NCBI GenBank assembly: GCA_001723645.1
Contig: MDLC01000008.1
Coordinates: 1 to 64,000, forward strand
Source of the DNA: Candidatus Endobugula sertula
Lineage (GTDB): Bacteria > Pseudomonadota > Gammaproteobacteria > Pseudomonadales > Cellvibrionaceae
Direction: 5' to 3'
Length of the DNA stretch: 64,000 nucleotides
The notes under the pieces: model-generated
Databases searched by the model: none
What the model saw: the letters and a program-made list of their open reading frames with translations, nothing else
What the model was told of the DNA's origin: nothing
Part shown: in pieces, positions 10,362 to 19,425 of the stretch
Numbering within the stretch: the first letter of the stretch is position 1
Layout: each line of letters begins with the position of its first letter
Position numbers and translations under genes: made by a program

Positions 10362-10389
10362 AAAAGGGTTCGTTAACGGACCCTTTTTT
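10362..10389 (+). terminator. Rho-independent terminator after tuf
   Basis: A stem AAAAGGGTTC / GGACCCTTTT (one G-U pair) with loop GTTAAC is followed by further T residues. It lies nine bases after the tuf stop and closes the str operon. Confidence 0.85.
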
Positions 10390-10449: not shown

Positions 10450-11379
10450 ATGACTATGTTCTTTCGGTGCTTGAAACGAAATATTATCTTCTTTATTGTG
10501 CCTTTCTTCATTGTTATTGGTCCTAATCTATACGCTGAAGATATTGGAGTCATTGGGTTGATTACCGGGACTATAGGTGGCACTTATATCCAAATTGGTG
10601 AGAACATCTCACAGTTAGCAAAGCAAAATAACATACAGGTCAATGTGTATCCATCCAATGGTTCTCTGGAAAATATTGCGGCAGTATTTGAGCGAGATGA
10701 TGTGCAAATGGCCTTGGTACAATCGGATGTCTTGGGTTATTTAAGAGAATCGCAAAATAAAAAGCTGGAAAAAATTGAAGAAAATATAAAAATGATGTTC
10801 CCTTTATATAATGAAGAGATTCATTTATTGGCAAGGAAGGAGATTACTTCAATTTACGATTTAAATAATAAACATGTTGGAGTTGGTGGCCGTGGAAGTG
10901 GTACTAACTTAACAGGTGATTTATTGTTTGAGGTAACCAATGTTTGGCCGCGCAAGAAGTATTATCTGGAAGGAGTGTCTGCGTTAAGGGCTTTAGAGAA
11001 TAATCAAATAGATGCCTTTATCTATGTTTCAGGATATCCCGTGGAGTTACTCCAAAATGTCGATGCTAGTCGATTCCATTTGGTTCCTCTGGGTGAAGCT
11101 GTACTTTCCGAATATTACCTCAGTTCCGAGATTCCAGCCGGGACTTATTCGTGGCAAGAAGGTGTCGTCAAAACAGTAGCTGTAAAAGCAGTATTGATGA
11201 GTTCTGGTTTTAAAGGTAAGTATTGCAATGTTGCTCGCCAATTAGCCAATGTTATTTACAGTAATATGGAGTGGTTGTATGTTCACGGACATTATAAATG
11301 GCATGAGGTTAACCTATATTATGATTTAAATAAATGGGATCGTTATGAATGCGTTGCTGCCACTTATGATGAAAAATAA
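10450..11379 (+). CDS. TAXI-family periplasmic solute-binding protein
   Basis: This is a 309-residue exported protein of the TAXI (TRAP-associated extracytoplasmic immunogenic) family. A signal peptide covers about residues 1-29, with a hydrophobic core IIFFIVPFFIVIG and a likely cleavage after LYA. The mature protein opens with the family signature LITGTIGGTYIQIGENISQLAK, followed by VNVYPSNGSLENIAAVFERDDVQMALVQSDVL and GVGGRGSGTNLTGD. TRAP permease genes (the fused QM subunit) are absent from the neighbourhood. The next gene, 55 bases downstream on the same strand, is a membrane signalling protein. I infer that the protein may act as a periplasmic ligand sensor rather than as a transporter component. 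Confidence 0.85.
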   Translation: MTMFFRCLKRNIIFFIVPFFIVIGPNLYAEDIGVIGLITGTIGGTYIQIGENISQLAKQNNIQVNVYPSNGSLENIAAVFERDDVQMALVQSDVLGYLRESQNKKLEKIEENIKMMFPLYNEEIHLLARKEITSIYDLNNKHVGVGGRGSGTNLTGDLLFEVTNVWPRKKYYLEGVSALRALENNQIDAFIYVSGYPVELLQNVDASRFHLVPLGEAVLSEYYLSSEIPAGTYSWQEGVVKTVAVKAVLMSSGFKGKYCNVARQLANVIYSNMEWLYVHGHYKWHEVNLYYDLNKWDRYECVAATYDEK

Positions 11380-11434
11380 GATAAACCTTATAATATTTTT
11401 GAATAATAGGTTTTAATGGAGAGTGAGGCAATTC

Positions 11435-13555
11435 ATGGCAAATATTGTCCATTTTAAAAAATATAAAGTTATTATAATTTCTGTAGTGGTCTTTCTTATA
11501 CTGGATTTCTCCGTTCTGGTATTTAATTATTATATCTCTTATAAAATAGCCAAAAATGCTATTGCAATTAATCTTGCAGGCCAACAGCGATCCTTAAGTC
11601 AGCGGATCACAAAAAACTTGTTAGAGTTTGAAAGAGCTTACGATAAAGCGAGGGATTATGGGCCTATTATTGCTGATATAAAGAGTAGTATGGGAAGGTT
11701 TGACGAAATACTATCAGCATTTGATGTTGGTGGGATGGTGTCTATAAAGGGAGAACGGGTCTTTATAGAACCCGTTTCTGATGAACCAGGGAGGCGAGCT
11801 ATTGAAACTGCTAAGCCTATGTGGGCAATCTATAAAAATTATACGGCAGATGTATTGAATGAGTTTGAACATCGGGAACATATTAAAGAAGATGTAGTGA
11901 CTATTTTTTTTAGAGAATCTATTATCAACGACGTAGTGCTTTATGTGACTCATAATAATCTTGCCCTGCTGGAAGTGGTAAGCGATCTGAATGAAGCGGT
12001 AGGGAATACTGCAGAAGAGAAAGTTAGGAAGTTGAGGATTATACAATCCCTTGCTATCTTTCTTGCAGTAATCAATTTTTTCTTTATTATTTTCTTTGCA
12101 CTGAAGAATTTAAGGAAAATTGATACTGAGCTTGAATTTGCGAAAGCGGAATTGCACGTAATGTTAAATACGATTACTGAGGGAATATTTTTGTTGGATT
12201 CTAATTTGGTAATTAGTGAGCAATACTCTAAAGAAATGGAAATTATTTTTAATGGTGAAGAGTTAAGTGGAAAATCATTATTATTCCTCTTAAATAAAAT
12301 ATGCCATGATTTTAATGAAAAGGGTGTGGGCGATTTTTTGCAAGCCTTATTTGATAAAAATAAAAATATGAAAGTGCTAAATTTACTTAATCCTCTGCAA
12401 AAAGTGTTAGTTAAAGATAAAAATAAAACTCATGGTTTGGATGATAAACGATACTTGAGATTTTCTTATTCCAGAATTGAAGCTGATAAATATGTAGAGA
12501 GGATACTGGTTCGTGTTGTTGATATTTCAAAAGAAGTATTGCACGAGCAGACTCTGGAAAAGGAGAGAGACAGGCAGTTTAAACAGATGCATCTTATATC
12601 TGCACTAATGAATAGTAATGCAGATATGTTACCCATATTTTTTCAGAGAAGTTTTTATTGTTTTGATCATATCAATGGTATCTTAAAGTCGCCAATTAGC
12701 GATAGTAGAGAACTTTTTGGTAAAGTTGAAAGAATTGATTCATTGCTGAATGACTTTCGAGTTGAGGCTAAAAAACTGGGCTTGGAGTCTTTAACCAATG
12801 TGTCGAGTGACTTGCAGACTGAACTTGAAAAAATAAAAGGAAAGAAAAAATTATCTGTTGATGATTTTTATAATTTTTCATTGGTGCTTGATAATCTTGT
12901 CTCCCATACTGAATCTATTTATAAATTTTCTAATAAAATTTTGTCGGAAAATGCTGTAAAAATATTTCAGCTTAAGTCAGTTGTGTCGGAAAATGATATT
13001 GGTTGGGCTCATCTGAGCGAATTTTCTGAGATTGTGGCAGAAAAAGAGCGAAAGGATATTGAATTTGTCGTGTCAGGTTTGAATGACCACTTATTGCCAA
13101 AGAAAATGTTGCGCTTTATTAATTCAATTATTGTACAACTAACTTACCATTCTATTGCCGTGAGTATTGAAACCCCGCAGCGAAGAATTGAAATGGGTAA
13201 GCCAAGTTTTGGCCTGGTTGATGTCAGGCTGGTTAAAAAGAAAAGTGGTGGTTATTATCTGACAATACGTAATGATGGAACAGGATTGAATGTAAATGAA
13301 GTGAGGGCTTCAGTTGTTGATGGTGGTGCGATACGCGGTATCCCTTCAGGTAAAATGACTAAAAAACAAATGCTTTTTTTGTTATTTTATTCCTATAACC
13401 CAGAAGAAAACAAGCTATTGTTCTATGATAACGAGTTAGTATCTTGTGATCAAATGATGAAGTTTATTGCTGACTATAACGTTAAGTTTGATATTAGAAG
13501 TGTTGATAATGAAGGTAGTGTTTTTGAGTTTATGTTTCCAGTTTCGACCCTTTAA
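11435..13555 (+). CDS. CheA-like transmembrane sensor with degenerate kinase motifs
   Basis: The protein has 706 residues. A first membrane helix lies at about 10-32. A periplasmic domain of the type IV pili methyl-accepting chemotaxis transducer N-terminal (PilJ-N) type follows, with AINLAGQQRSLSQRITK, then a second helix at about 203-225. A PAS-like domain (about 235-370), a helical Hpt-like region (about 395-505) and a CheA-like ATPase region (about 530-705) come next. The position aligned with the phospho-accepting His of HxxKGxA reads NDFRVEA. The N-box Asn position reads LTYHS, and the second glycine box is not recognisable, while NDGTG (G1 box) remains. I infer a pseudokinase or scaffold. 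The ATG at 11435 follows GAGG; an in-frame GTG at 11423 is less likely. It is probably co-transcribed with the TAXI protein. Confidence 0.7.
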   Translation: MANIVHFKKYKVIIISVVVFLILDFSVLVFNYYISYKIAKNAIAINLAGQQRSLSQRITKNLLEFERAYDKARDYGPIIADIKSSMGRFDEILSAFDVGGMVSIKGERVFIEPVSDEPGRRAIETAKPMWAIYKNYTADVLNEFEHREHIKEDVVTIFFRESIINDVVLYVTHNNLALLEVVSDLNEAVGNTAEEKVRKLRIIQSLAIFLAVINFFFIIFFALKNLRKIDTELEFAKAELHVMLNTITEGIFLLDSNLVISEQYSKEMEIIFNGEELSGKSLLFLLNKICHDFNEKGVGDFLQALFDKNKNMKVLNLLNPLQKVLVKDKNKTHGLDDKRYLRFSYSRIEADKYVERILVRVVDISKEVLHEQTLEKERDRQFKQMHLISALMNSNADMLPIFFQRSFYCFDHINGILKSPISDSRELFGKVERIDSLLNDFRVEAKKLGLESLTNVSSDLQTELEKIKGKKKLSVDDFYNFSLVLDNLVSHTESIYKFSNKILSENAVKIFQLKSVVSENDIGWAHLSEFSEIVAEKERKDIEFVVSGLNDHLLPKKMLRFINSIIVQLTYHSIAVSIETPQRRIEMGKPSFGLVDVRLVKKKSGGYYLTIRNDGTGLNVNEVRASVVDGGAIRGIPSGKMTKKQMLFLLFYSYNPEENKLLFYDNELVSCDQMMKFIADYNVKFDIRSVDNEGSVFEFMFPVSTL

Positions 13556-13588: not shown

Positions 13589-14845
13589 CTAGTGTTCCCT
13601 CCTTAGGTTGATTAGTGAATTTTTCTGGTCAATTTCGAATTGAAATTGTTGCAAGATATTCATTCCCAATAATCCCACTGAGTGGTTTGAAGTGGGGTAG
13701 TCAAGAACAGCAATACTAACATTGCTAATTGTATAATTTCCTAAAGTAAACGTATCCAGTAGATAGATGTCGCCGTTTGTTTTTCCATTAGCGGTTAAGA
13801 AATACTGTGAGGATTGGTATGTCATATTGCTTGATGAGTTCATCGTTTCAAAAAAAACTTTACTAATTGTAGTGATAGAGGCTCCAGTATCCAGCAATAA
13901 CTGAGCATCAGTTCCAGACAAGTTTACAGGGACAATAAATTGGTTGGCATGTTTAATTAGGGTGACCGATGATTCGAATGTACTGTTATTCCCTGTGTTT
14001 TCTGCATGGGATGAGGAGCTGATGCCATATGTTTTAAATAATGCCGATATTCTATCTCTCCATTCATGATGTTCTGCTAAGTTGTCAGCTTCTGCTTTAG
14101 CTCGGTATTCATTGCCTGATTGTAAATGAATGTTAATTAACTGGTATCTGTCGGTTTTTGTTAATAAGCCAGTGTTGTCAGCAAATGTATAAATATTAAT
14201 AAGTTCACTCAGATTTTCTGAGTTCATAAAGGCCTCATTCACTTGTTTCATAAATTGTTTGTAGGCTTCGTGAGTTTTAATTTTATCTTCTTTGGTGAAA
14301 GCATAGCTATTAACAAGTTGGAACGTATTGAGTGCTTCATAAAATAGCTCTTGTTTATCATAAAAATCAGCCAATATTAATAGAATGTCTATATCATCAT
14401 AAAAATCGTTCAAGTAGCTATCTATTGCTGCTATAACTTTTTCCCGATTTTGCAAGGGGAATTCGATTAATCGTTTTAAGTATTGAATAAATTGTTGTTT
14501 GAATAAGTGTGCATTGTCTTGTGATAGATTCCATATCGTATGGTATAGCCTCATGGCATCTATGTATTTTTCGGCTTCTAGTAATTGGGAAAATATTGCC
14601 GGTATAGGGGTCTGTGTACGGTTGAGTTTGTATGCAGTGACAGGGAGTTCGCTGAGTGTGCTGCAATTGCAAGTGGTTGACCCTGCTGGTAAGGGGCTCA
14701 TTGTATCGGTAATAGGGGGATTAGATTCATGATGTTGGCTGATCGTGTGAGAACCTTGGTTTGTAGCGTTTTGGCCTTGGTGTCCAGTATAATAGCCAAT
14801 GCCAAAGCATAAAATAAGTGCGCAGATAAAGGTAATTAATTTCAT
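13589..14845 (-). CDS. Membrane-anchored retropepsin-like aspartic protease
   Basis: The protein has 418 residues. An N-terminal signal anchor (MKLITFICALILCFGIGYY) places the rest in the periplasm. Residues about 80-275 are helical, TPR-like. The C-terminal 120 residues form a clan AA aspartic protease domain with the catalytic DTGAS at about 320-324, followed by ITTISKVFFE. The closing flap/psi-loop element SVGLLGMNILQQFQFEID lies near residue 390. One such domain per chain implies a homodimeric active site, as in retropepsins. It is convergent with the CheA-like gene (33 bases apart) and divergent from the metalloprotease lipoprotein. Substrate is unknown. Confidence 0.8.
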   Translation of the reverse strand: MKLITFICALILCFGIGYYTGHQGQNATNQGSHTISQHHESNPPITDTMSPLPAGSTTCNCSTLSELPVTAYKLNRTQTPIPAIFSQLLEAEKYIDAMRLYHTIWNLSQDNAHLFKQQFIQYLKRLIEFPLQNREKVIAAIDSYLNDFYDDIDILLILADFYDKQELFYEALNTFQLVNSYAFTKEDKIKTHEAYKQFMKQVNEAFMNSENLSELINIYTFADNTGLLTKTDRYQLINIHLQSGNEYRAKAEADNLAEHHEWRDRISALFKTYGISSSSHAENTGNNSTFESSVTLIKHANQFIVPVNLSGTDAQLLLDTGASITTISKVFFETMNSSSNMTYQSSQYFLTANGKTNGDIYLLDTFTLGNYTISNVSIAVLDYPTSNHSVGLLGMNILQQFQFEIDQKNSLINLRREH

Positions 14846-14996
14846 AGAGACCTATCATGAGAGAATTATTGTCGTTTACTTTGCTCGCACCTATGATGGC
14901 TGGTATTATTATATCTCATAAATCTATCATGGAGTCTATCAGGAACTATTCGATTGACGAAATATCTTGGTAGAGATTGTCCTTAAGGAGTTTTAC

Positions 14997-16694
14997 TTGT
15001 ATACAGTTCGTTTAATGATGATTTTTGGAATCATTGCTTTGGTCATTGTTGGTTGTGGTGGAGGTGGTGATGATTCCAACTCCACTTCTACCTCCAGCTC
15101 CAACTCGTCGTCAACTACCACTACGCCTCCACCATCAGTCCAGACTATTATCAACGATGGTACTGCCTGTGCTCCTATGGGTGCTACTGTGCTGGTTTCT
15201 GGCACTGTTCATTATGAGAGAGTCTTTTTTTCCACAACAGCATCGGGCCTGGATTATAATAATATTCAGCCGCGCCCTGTTCGTGGGGCAGTGATACAGG
15301 CTTTGGGTGTTGGCGGTTGTGTTATGGCTAGCGCGTTGACTTCTGTTACTGGAACCTACTCCTTGGCAGTTTCCCCAAACACCAGTGTGAAAATTCGTGT
15401 AAAAGCCCAAACACAAAGCACAGCAGGCGCTCTTTGGGACTTTGCAGTTAAGGATAATACTAATAGTAATGGCCTTTACGTTCTGGACGGTTCTTTTGCG
15501 ACGTCTGGCATAGCAAACTCTACCCGTAATTTAACGGCTACTTCTGGTTGGACGGGTAGTTCCTATGGTGGTGTACGAAGTGCAGCTCCTTTTGCGATTC
15601 TGGACTCTGTGTACAAGGCTATTCAAAAAGTCGTTTCTGTTGATGCCTCCGTGAATATGGATAATGCAGATATTTTTTGGAGTGTAAATAACAGTACGGC
15701 CAGTGGAACCCCTTCTGCTGGTGAGATTGGAACCAGCTATTATTTGAACGATGAGATTTATCTTCTCGGTCGGCAAAACAGTGGTACGGATGAGTATGAT
15801 GAGCATGTCATTATTCATGAATGGGGGCATTATTTTGAAGATAATCTTTCCCGCTCGGATAGTATAGGAGGCGGTCATACTATTAGCGATATATTAGACA
15901 TGCGTGTTGCTCTTAGTGAAGGTTTTGGTAATGCTCTTTCTGGAATGGTGACAGATGATCCTGTTTATCGGGATTCATATGATGCTCAGCAGGGCAATGG
16001 TTCTGTCATTAATGTTGAAACCAACGCAGCAACGAATATCGGTTGGTTTAGTGAGGGTTCAGTACAGACAATCCTATATGATATTTATGATACAACTGCT
16101 GATGTTAATGACTCTGTAAGTTTGGGTTTTTCTGCTATTTACAATGCCATGGTGAGTTCTGAGTATAAAAACCAAGCTAGTTTAACCAGTATTTTTTCTC
16201 TAATTGATAAAGTGAAAGAGGATAATGTAGGTTCTGCAAGTGCTATTGATACTCTGGTCAGCTCACAAAGTATTGATGTTATTGTTGATCGGTTTGGTAC
16301 CAACGAAACCAATAGTGGTGGTAACGCGACTAATCTTCCTATGTATAAACTACTGACGGATGATGGTAATCCTGTCATAGTATGTAGTCATAAAGATAAC
16401 GGTGAATATAATAAGTTAGGCAACGGACAATTCCTGCGTTTACAGGTGGTATCTGCTGGTAGTCATAACATTGTGGCCACCCGAGTGTCGGGTTTAACAT
16501 CGTCTGATCCTGATGTCGGGGTTTATCTAAATGGTAGTTTAATATTTGTAGGTACTTCATCGACTAATAACACAGAAACAATCACCGCTAACCTAAACGT
16601 TGATGAGTATATTGTTGAAGTCCATGATTTTAGTAATGTTGATAGATCAACAACCACTGGTGGTAATGTCTGTTTTAATGTGTCTGTATTTTAA
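14997..16694 (+). CDS. Lipoprotein zinc metalloprotease with HEWGH motif
   Basis: The protein has 565 residues. The TTG at 14997 is chosen because AAGGAG ends six bases before it and because it gives a clean lipoprotein signal, MYTVRLMMIFGIIALVIVGC, with lipobox VIVGC. A low-complexity Ser/Thr/Asn linker follows. Residues about 50-150 look like a beta-sandwich (carboxypeptidase-regulatory-like) domain. The catalytic region holds HEWGH at about 274-278 (HExxH type) and a downstream SEGFGNALSG whose Glu could be the third zinc ligand. The last 100 residues resemble a bacterial pre-peptidase C-terminal (PPC) domain. An upstream TTG at 14967 is less likely. Substrate is unknown. A second lipoprotein gene starts 20 bases downstream. 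Confidence 0.8.
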   Translation: MYTVRLMMIFGIIALVIVGCGGGGDDSNSTSTSSSNSSSTTTTPPPSVQTIINDGTACAPMGATVLVSGTVHYERVFFSTTASGLDYNNIQPRPVRGAVIQALGVGGCVMASALTSVTGTYSLAVSPNTSVKIRVKAQTQSTAGALWDFAVKDNTNSNGLYVLDGSFATSGIANSTRNLTATSGWTGSSYGGVRSAAPFAILDSVYKAIQKVVSVDASVNMDNADIFWSVNNSTASGTPSAGEIGTSYYLNDEIYLLGRQNSGTDEYDEHVIIHEWGHYFEDNLSRSDSIGGGHTISDILDMRVALSEGFGNALSGMVTDDPVYRDSYDAQQGNGSVINVETNAATNIGWFSEGSVQTILYDIYDTTADVNDSVSLGFSAIYNAMVSSEYKNQASLTSIFSLIDKVKEDNVGSASAIDTLVSSQSIDVIVDRFGTNETNSGGNATNLPMYKLLTDDGNPVIVCSHKDNGEYNKLGNGQFLRLQVVSAGSHNIVATRVSGLTSSDPDVGVYLNGSLIFVGTSSTNNTETITANLNVDEYIVEVHDFSNVDRSTTTGGNVCFNVSVF

Positions 16695-16714
16695 GAGAAA
16701 GTAGGAAAAGAGCG

Positions 16715-17251
16715 ATGAACAATATATTATTGTTTGCATTAATAGTCAGCTTGCCTTTAATGCAAGCGTGTAAGGAAGAGTTAAAACCACAAAGGGTGGT
16801 TGTAGCCGATAACTATACCGTTCAACTACCAGGGTATGCAAAACCTGGAGCTTCTGTTGCTTTAGCGAATAGCAAAGTAACGTTAGATGTGGCTGGTGCA
16901 CAACATGCCGTTGATGTAGGTATCAATAGCGCTTACGATAGTGGTACTATGGCGCTATCTGTCAGTGCCTCGGAAGGACTTTATATCGTCGATGGTGATA
17001 CCAATCCAACAGTATCACTACGTAAGGGGACCATTGAGTTTCCTTATACTATTATTGCTAGCCAGACAGGACGTTACTATATTTATTTGAATGCTAAAGT
17101 GGAAAGTGGTGGTAAGATCGAGGGGCGTGCTTTAACCTTTATTGTGCAAGTGGGTGAGGAGTCCCTAGGTACTGCTTCTCAAAAGTCGGCGATAGATGGT
17201 AATACTGAAGTATTAATACCGCTGCCTGCCGAGGAAGACATTATTTATTAA
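16715..17251 (+). CDS. Small lipoprotein of unknown function
   Basis: The protein has 178 residues. A lipoprotein signal peptide, MNNILLFALIVSLPLMQAC, has Cys at residue 19. The mature part is rich in beta-type sequence, with no motif I recognise. The ATG follows AGGAAAAGAG. The gap to the metalloprotease gene is only 20 bases, so the two are almost certainly one operon. A role as partner, anchor or inhibitor of the protease is possible but not shown by the sequence. The hairpin at 17291-17318 ends the transcript. Confidence 0.65.
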   Translation: MNNILLFALIVSLPLMQACKEELKPQRVVVADNYTVQLPGYAKPGASVALANSKVTLDVAGAQHAVDVGINSAYDSGTMALSVSASEGLYIVDGDTNPTVSLRKGTIEFPYTIIASQTGRYYIYLNAKVESGGKIEGRALTFIVQVGEESLGTASQKSAIDGNTEVLIPLPAEEDIIY

Positions 17252-17340: not shown

Positions 17341-19425
17341 TTACTTATTCGCTTTCTTCTCTTTTTCTGCTGCGATTACGTCTTCGGCTACTTGTGCAGG
17401 GCAAGGTAAGTAATGTGAGAATTCCATAGAGAATTGGCCGCGCCCAGAAGTAATGGTTCGTAAATGACCAATATAACCAAACATCTCTGAAAGAGGGACA
17501 TCCGCTTTAATACGTACACCTGTAGTGCCTGGTTCTTGATCTTTAATCATTCCGCGACGGCGGTTTAGATCACCAATCACATCACCGACATGGTCGTCTG
17601 GAGTAAATACATCCACATGCATGATAGGCTCTAATAATTGGGGACCGGCTTTTGGCATGGACTGACGGAATGCACTCTTGGCTGCAATTTCAAAGGCAAC
17701 CGCTGACGAATCCACTGCGTGATAAGCACCGTCATACAGTTCAATATCAACATCTACCATAGGGAAGCTGGCTAAGGGGCCCTCTTCCATCATGGTCTTG
17801 AAGCCTTTTTCAATAGCAGGAAAAAATTCTTTTGGTACATTACCGCCTACTACTGTTGATCTGAAAGTGAAGCCAACACCAGGTTCATTAGGTCTAATGC
17901 GATAGTCAATTTTACCAAACTGGCCAGCTCCTCCCGATTGTTTTTTATGAGTATAGCTATCTTCAATGGTTTGAGTAATACTCTCACGATAGGCTACCTG
18001 GGGTTTACCCACATCAAGGTCAACGCCATAAGTACGCTTCAGGATGTCTACTTTAATATCCAAGTGCAATTCACCCATCCCTTTTAGGATAGTTTCACCA
18101 GAATCTTCGTCAGTTTCAACTCGGAATGAAGGGTCTTCTGCAACCATTTTACCAATAGCAATTCCCATCTTCTCAACACCTCCCTTATCTTTTGGTGCCA
18201 CTGCAATAGAAATCACTGGCTCAGGGAAGATCATGGGCTCTAGCGTGCAAGGGTTGTTTGGGTCGCATAGTGTATGACCCGTCTGTACATTCTTCATGCC
18301 GACAACGGCAATAATATCGCCAGCTTGTGCGGAATTCAGTTCATTACGGTCATCTGCGTGCATTTCGACCATACGGCCAATGCGCTCTGTTTTGCCTGTG
18401 TAGGAATTTAATATGGTCATGCCTTTTTCTAGCTTGCCGGAGTAGATGCGAATAAAGGTTAAAGCACCAAAGCGATCATCCATAATCTTGAAGGCCAGAG
18501 CACGTAGTGGCTCATCAACAGAAACAGTAGCGACTTCATTTGTTTCATTACCTTCTTCATCGGTTAACGGTTGAGGATCAACCTCTGTTGGGTTTGGCAG
18601 GTAATCAATAACCGCATCCAATACTAACTGGATACCTTTGTTTTTAAAGGCTGAACCACAATAAGTTGGGAAGAAATCAAGAGCGATAGTCCCCTTACGG
18701 ATACAACGCTTAATATCGTCAATAGAAGGCTCTTCACCCTCCATATAAGCCACCATTAGGTCATCGTCCTGTTCAACGGCTGTTTCAATCAACTGCTCAC
18801 GATACTCAGCGACTTTTTCTACCATATCTCCAGGGATATCTGTGACTTCGTAGTTTTCTGGTAGACCAGAATCATCCCAGATATAGGCTTTTTGGCTGAG
18901 TATATCGACCACACCTTTAAAATCGTCTTCAATACCGATAGGCAGGGTCATCACTAGAGGATTAGCCCCCAAGACTTTCTTAACCTGTTTCACTACACGG
19001 TAGAAATCAGCCCCCATACGGTCCAGCTTATTGACGAAAATCACACGGGCGACTTCAGATTCGTTGGCATAGCGCCAGTTGGTTTCTGATTGCGGTTCAA
19101 CACCACCAGAACCACAGAACACCCCGATACCACCATCCAATACTTTCAATGAGCGGTAGACCTCAACAGTGAAATCAACGTGCCCCGGGGTATCAATAAT
19201 ATTTAAACGGTGATCTTTCCAGAAACAAGTGGTTGCTGCAGACTGAATGGTAATACCACGTTCTTGCTCCTGTTCCATAAAGTCAGTAGTCGCCGCGCCG
19301 TCATGTACTTCACCTGTCTTATGAATCTTACCGGTGAGCTTTAGAATACGCTCGGTGGAAGTTGTCTTGCCCGCATCAACATGAGCAAAGATACCAATAT
19401 TTCTATAAAGGCTTAAGTCTGTCAT
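17341..19425 (-). CDS. Second elongation factor G (EF-G2 type)
   Basis: The protein has 694 residues and all GTPase motifs: [21 protein letters not shown] and NKLDRMG. Full-length domains II to V follow, including [15 protein letters not shown]. It differs from FusA at 6933-9041 in many places (for example [13 protein letters not shown] at the start and an [10 protein letters not shown] tail) and matches the separate EF-G2/FusA2 branch found in Pseudomonas and relatives. In known organisms with two EF-Gs the roles may be split between translocation, recycling and stress. Which applies here cannot be told. It stands alone, with the terminator at 17291-17318 after it. Confidence 0.88.

Follow-up and report, generated by a model that had tools for sequence, protein, structure and literature searches.

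The membrane protein encoded at positions 11423–13555 of the window, the 64,000-nucleotide stretch of Candidatus Endobugula sertula DNA analysed here, is almost certainly a dead kinase, judging from its sequence, and its descent from active CheA-like kinases appears just as secure. Its gene lies immediately downstream of one for a TAXI-family periplasmic solute-binding protein. By analogy with known systems, we favour a binding-protein-coupled receptor whose dead cytoplasmic kinase would act by a conformational relay, a reading that we regard as evenly poised.

Pair and domains: The two genes are flanked by tuf on one side and by an aspartyl-protease gene in reverse orientation on the other, on contig MDLC01000008.1 of the 3.35-Mb, 112-contig assembly of this Bugula neritina symbiont. 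Both open reading frames are present where the sequence-only reading had placed them. Translation of the pseudokinase could start at GTG 11423 (710 aa) or at ATG 11435 (706 aa). The features of the locus are as follows.

10362–10387, + strand: terminator-like hairpin 3' of tuf (a consensus match only; the number of hairpins found is within shuffle expectation)
10450–11379, + strand: TAXI-family periplasmic solute-binding protein, 309 aa, with a signal-peptide-like N-terminal segment
11423–13555, + strand: membrane pseudokinase, 710 aa from GTG, with PilJ-type ectodomain and PAS-like, Hpt/P1-like and CheA P4-like domains
11552–12016, + strand: PilJ-type four-helix ectodomain, residues 44–198 (McpN 6gcv, Z 15.0; LytSN 5xsd, Z 13.2)
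11567–11602, + strand: altered nitrate N-box INLAGQQRSLSQ, residues 49–60, with Arg56 kept and Met replaced by Ser57
12155–12532, + strand: PAS-like domain, residues ~245–370, assigned from predicted secondary structure only
12617–12934, + strand: Hpt / CheA P1-like helical domain, residues 399–504 (1i5n, Z 12.3, a helical match of modest weight)
12749–12751, + strand: codon of N443, in the column of the phospho-acceptor His (alignment with relatives)
12998–13546, + strand: CheA P4-like ATPase fold, residues 526–708 (1i5c, Z 19.2, rmsd 3.0, 171 aligned)
13145–13162, + strand: degenerate N-box YHSIAV (575–580) replacing RN...H (alignment with relatives)
13271–13285, + strand: degenerate G1 box NDGTG (617–621) replacing DDGxG (alignment with relatives)
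13400–13447, + strand: expected site of the GxGxG (G2) box, which is absent (alignment with relatives)

Because the terminator-like hairpin follows tuf, transcription of the pair is probably separate from that of the ribosomal operon. An ortholog of the membrane protein (L034), 48% identical to it, is encoded on a 116,861-bp contig (JAHDEM010000004.1) of the same-genus genome Candidatus Endobugula sp. MAG-181 (G002). A TAXI gene precedes it there on the same strand, at a distance of 18 bp as against 43 bp in the window. The aspartyl-protease and fusA2 neighbours are also kept in order in MAG-181, so synteny is a weak argument for pairing. The contigs of a further genome (G001) end at the locus.

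Several neighbouring genes deserve mention in their own right. The aspartyl-protease-domain protein (gag-asp_proteas; 13589–14845) is convergent with the pseudokinase gene and evolves fast, with 37% identity between genus members. Between it and fusA2, positions 14967–17251 hold the gene of a secreted protein resembling HExxH metallopeptidases, with a Ser/Thr-rich linker, and after it a small lipoprotein-like ORF; both are missing at the same place in MAG-181. The fusA2 gene itself, a second elongation factor G gene adjoining the S10 operon, occupies 17341–19425; its copy in G001 (C442:8883-10955) carries in-frame stops in the assembly.

Loss of catalytic motifs: The sequence-only reading had described a CheA-like pseudokinase with Asn in place of the phospho-accepting His, a replaced N-box Asn and no second glycine box. 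Alignment with relatives bears out all three losses. Each of the other 43 relatives in the alignment has an intact Hpt H..KG motif, RN...H N-box (KN in one of them), DDGxG and GxGxG; only the window protein and its MAG-181 ortholog are without the catalytic motifs. At the motif columns these two proteins carry, respectively, N443/D, R446/Y, V447/S, Y575/Y, H576/H, V580/L and N617/N, and the G2 box is absent in both. Thus Asn stands where all 43 relatives have His, and Y575-H576...V580 takes the place of RN...H. The NDGTG box, which had been described as remaining, is present at 617–621 but damaged: relatives have DDGxG as consensus, and its first Asp, which is replaced here, corresponds to the Asp of DxGxG by which GHKL ATPases contact adenine. 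With all four motifs preserved in 43 further members of the family, the losses are due neither to chance nor to misalignment. That two species share every one of them strongly supports the pseudokinase reading. A frameshift or assembly artefact is ruled out as their source by the ortholog, which has the same losses and an open frame. The proposed profile-alignment check, run against the 43 relatives, likewise rules out that an intact His or an intact N or G box lies at another place in the window protein.

Retained folds: The AlphaFold2 model of the membrane protein, built with 23 family members as input, reached a mean pLDDT of 78.6 and a pTM of 0.37, so that it can be used for the individual domain folds but not for how the domains are placed relative to one another. 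The domain order proposed earlier holds for the PilJ-type, Hpt/P1 and P4 folds, which match solved structures (the ectodomain also matches NarQ); the PAS domain was not detected by a Pfam search of this protein. Because helical bundles inflate Z, the helical-domain assignments draw on sequence as well: in a canonical relative (L041), the Pfam models PilJ, Hpt and HATPase_c exceed their cut-offs, and PilJ does so in the MAG-181 ortholog, although it is sub-threshold in the window protein. The membrane protein ends after P4 and has no Pfam match to the CheW domain, the CheW-like P5 domain of chemotaxis arrays.

Altered nitrate motif: The nitrate N-box was defined for McpN as [IVL][ND]xAGxQRML[ST]Q (PMC6381276). 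It is matched strictly by 29 of the 43 canonical relatives, whereas the window sequence fails the pattern. In the window protein and its ortholog the Arg of the box is kept and the Met is replaced by Ser or Thr; because of this replacement, both may have stopped sensing nitrate directly.

The canonical relatives are full-length proteins at ~30% identity, spread across the family and order. All 21 inspected relatives with a readable downstream flank have a CheY-like gene, a 149-aa CheX gene or both, close to the kinase gene or immediately beside it. Neither the window protein nor its ortholog has CheY/CheX genes at its locus; each has a TAXI gene upstream instead. They form one clade (SH-aLRT 100) whose long branch and unusual composition leave its exact attachment in the tree unfixed. 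The window genome has no canonical kinase paralogue and no matching CheX or CheY: the best match to the CheX query scores 21 bits, and that to the CheY query is a longer CheB-like protein (39%). MAG-181 keeps three other loci of the kinase family.

Two observations on these relatives stand apart. The membrane PilJ/Hpt/CheA-P4 kinases encoded together with CheY and CheX (L035-L055, e.g. L041:6930-9970) make up an apparently uncharacterised module, which, with the nitrate N-box as frequent as given above, resembles a nitrate-sensing phosphorelay widespread in the family and order. In MAG-181 (L048:9257-12396), another PilJ/Hpt kinase gene is immediately preceded by genes for a CHASE5 histidine kinase and two SBP_bac_3-like binding proteins, one of these two Pfam-confirmed; this is a second instance in which binding proteins occur close to a member of the kinase family.

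Uneven constraint: We compared domain identities between the window protein and its ortholog with those of 86 pairs of active relatives at 40–58% overall identity; these pairs are not independent and serve as a comparison, not a statistical test. Ectodomain identity is 60.7%, against a mean of 44.2% (sd 6.1) in the active pairs. Hpt identity is 21.8%, against 39.8% (sd 5.7, minimum 29.7), and HATPase identity is 39.0%, against 39.6%. Set beside equally diverged active pairs, these values say that the input side appears to have been tightened, P1 released and the P4 fold held. Between the two orthologs every domain has a pN lower than its pS, with the highest pN in Hpt; dS is saturated, so absolute dN/dS is uninformative. 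Within the ectodomain, conserved positions cluster most densely in H1 and H3. The H3–H4 connection spans 45 residues, compared with the usual 33–37, although a few relatives equal or exceed this length. PMC9769921 describes contacts of XylFII with H3 and H4 in the XylFII-LytS complex.

TAXI and its predicted ligand: The upstream ORF scores 114.3 bits against TIGR02122 TRAP_TAXI (cut-off 84.35) and 106 bits against Pfam NMT1_3. Its model (pLDDT 74.7, pTM 0.71) gives Z values of 23–25 to TAXI crystal structures, with the next group at 14. No TRAP permease gene adjoins it, and the two DctM genes of the assembly, one a contig-edge fragment, are of the dctM type of DctP systems; the description of a TAXI protein without TRAP permease genes is thus upheld. 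In VcGluP, the side chains that contact glutamate are Y45, S75, Q93, E125 and Y200 (PMC11574862). By alignment all five are conserved in the window protein, as the predicted ligand residues Y46, S72, Q91, E122 and Y192. Because of this conservation, the predicted ligand is an acidic amino acid, with glutamate or a close analogue the best guess, which we lean slightly towards. Tyr (78%) and Gln (54%) are frequent at the ligand sites of TAXIs (PMC11574862), so glutamate specificity stays a prediction.

The window TAXI has two conserved cysteines, Cys259 and Cys301, which are invariant in a TAXI subfamily with orphan members in Bradyrhizobium and on rhodobacteral and rhizobial plasmids (L102-L108, L136-L141). 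The nearest relatives found are likewise orphans, in Bradyrhizobium (40–44%), in another family of the same class and on such plasmids, and a PilJ kinase is absent from their immediate neighbourhood, as is any obvious TAXI-type permease. The contig scan for members of the TAXI alignment used two short peptides and can miss some. In Rhodobacter and Paracoccus, a gene of the subfamily lies directly 3' of a coiled-coil protein gene.

The proposal that the two genes form a ligand-sensing unit has thinner support. The pair is adjacent and co-oriented in the window and in MAG-181, two species of one genus. The search for further TAXI-PilJ pairs returned none in 144 family genomes, and no other TAXI-type kinase was found in 391 order genomes. 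We consider coupling of TAXI to the membrane protein fairly probable, from its occurrence in these two species, and the ligand-sensing unit a good but thinly supported hypothesis.

Proposed mechanism and alternatives: In the favoured receptor, periplasmic TAXI would bind an acidic amino acid, close and dock on the four-helix ectodomain. TM2 and the PAS-like domain would then carry the signal across the membrane and on to the P4-like fold, which survives and would offer a surface for binding in place of enzymatic activity. As output, the protein would interact by conformation with a cytoplasmic partner whose gene lies elsewhere, a step for which we see an equal chance either way; it fits both the missing CheY/CheX genes and the conservation of the ectodomain. 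Taken as a whole, the scenario is of an animal symbiont in which a CheA-like kinase was rebuilt as a non-enzymatic receptor: nitrate sensing and phosphotransfer would have been given up, TAXI taken on as ligand sensor, and extracellular glutamate (or an analogue) relayed by conformation to a cytoplasmic effector. We put this complete sequence of changes forward tentatively.

Three other explanations have to be weighed against it. The membrane protein could be a decaying relic, without function in a host-associated symbiont and with neutral losses; the disappearance of all catalytic motifs, the erosion of Hpt to 22% identity and the lack of the canonical CheY/CheX module in the window genome would agree with this. 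A relic is nonetheless improbable, given full-length open frames in two species with saturated synonymous sites and pN well below pS, an ectodomain more conserved than in active relatives, an equally conserved HATPase, and losses common to both species of one clade. It also seems unlikely that the two proteins are unrelated neighbours, with TAXI serving a distant transporter, such as one of the two GltS glutamate symporters, and the membrane protein sensing something else. The tight co-oriented spacing in both species, the altered nitrate motif and the raised ectodomain conservation, specific to the TAXI-linked proteins, speak for a connection, even though the genome has two unlinked GltS genes, TAXI-GltS systems are known (PMC12344293), most relatives in the TAXI subfamily are orphans and the synteny of other neighbours is kept as well.

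The third explanation keeps the pseudokinase within phosphorelay networks, where it would bind and modulate a response regulator or another kinase. A precedent is the pseudo-histidine kinase DivL, which reads the phospho-state of a regulator (PMC4211667), and both the retained P4-like fold and the three other family loci of MAG-181 would suit such a role. The window genome, however, is without an active paralogue or a cognate CheY or CheX, and the Hpt surface, where a regulator would naturally dock, shows the lowest conservation in the protein; we hold this role to be doubtful. The locus offers a clean before-and-after case, in which catalysis was lost while the input side stayed under strong constraint and intact relatives in the same genus serve as controls. 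The favoured receptor would add a signalling use for TAXI proteins, so far known mainly from transport, and a possible means by which a bryozoan symbiont detects an extracellular amino acid.

Comparison with known systems: Our literature search found no paper on TAXI-kinase pairs or CheA-type pseudokinases. The closest parallel is GlnH-GlnX-PknG of Corynebacterium and Mycobacterium, which likewise combines a periplasmic acidic-amino-acid binding protein with a kinase-inactive four-helix-bundle membrane protein and for which conformational signalling to a cytoplasmic effector has been proposed (PMC9769921). The arrangement in our two species, a binding-protein gene beside a non-kinase four-helix-bundle membrane protein, is of this type. 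The systems differ in that GlnH is an SBP_bac_3 protein and the window protein a TAXI, and in that GlnX, whose effector PknG is known, carries tandem bundles but no domain derived from a kinase. XylFII-LytS shares the docking of a binding protein on a four-helix ectodomain (LytSN), whose fold the modelled window ectodomain resembles, but LytS is catalytically active, as the histidine kinase of a two-component system, and XylFII binds sugar. The uncharacterised PilJ-PAS-Hpt-HATPase kinases with CheY and CheX (e.g. L041) have the same domain order and fold, at the full-length identity given above; they differ in their intact motifs, mostly nitrate-type N-box, adjacent CheY/CheX genes and lack of a TAXI gene. 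DivL (PMC4211667) also reuses a histidine-kinase fold without catalysis, although its core is DHp/CA and not CheA-like and its input is a phosphorylated regulator in place of a periplasmic binding protein. Finally, the TAXI-TRAP and TAXI-GltS glutamate transporters share the binding-protein fold and ligand residues with the window TAXI, which differs from them in having no linked membrane transporter.
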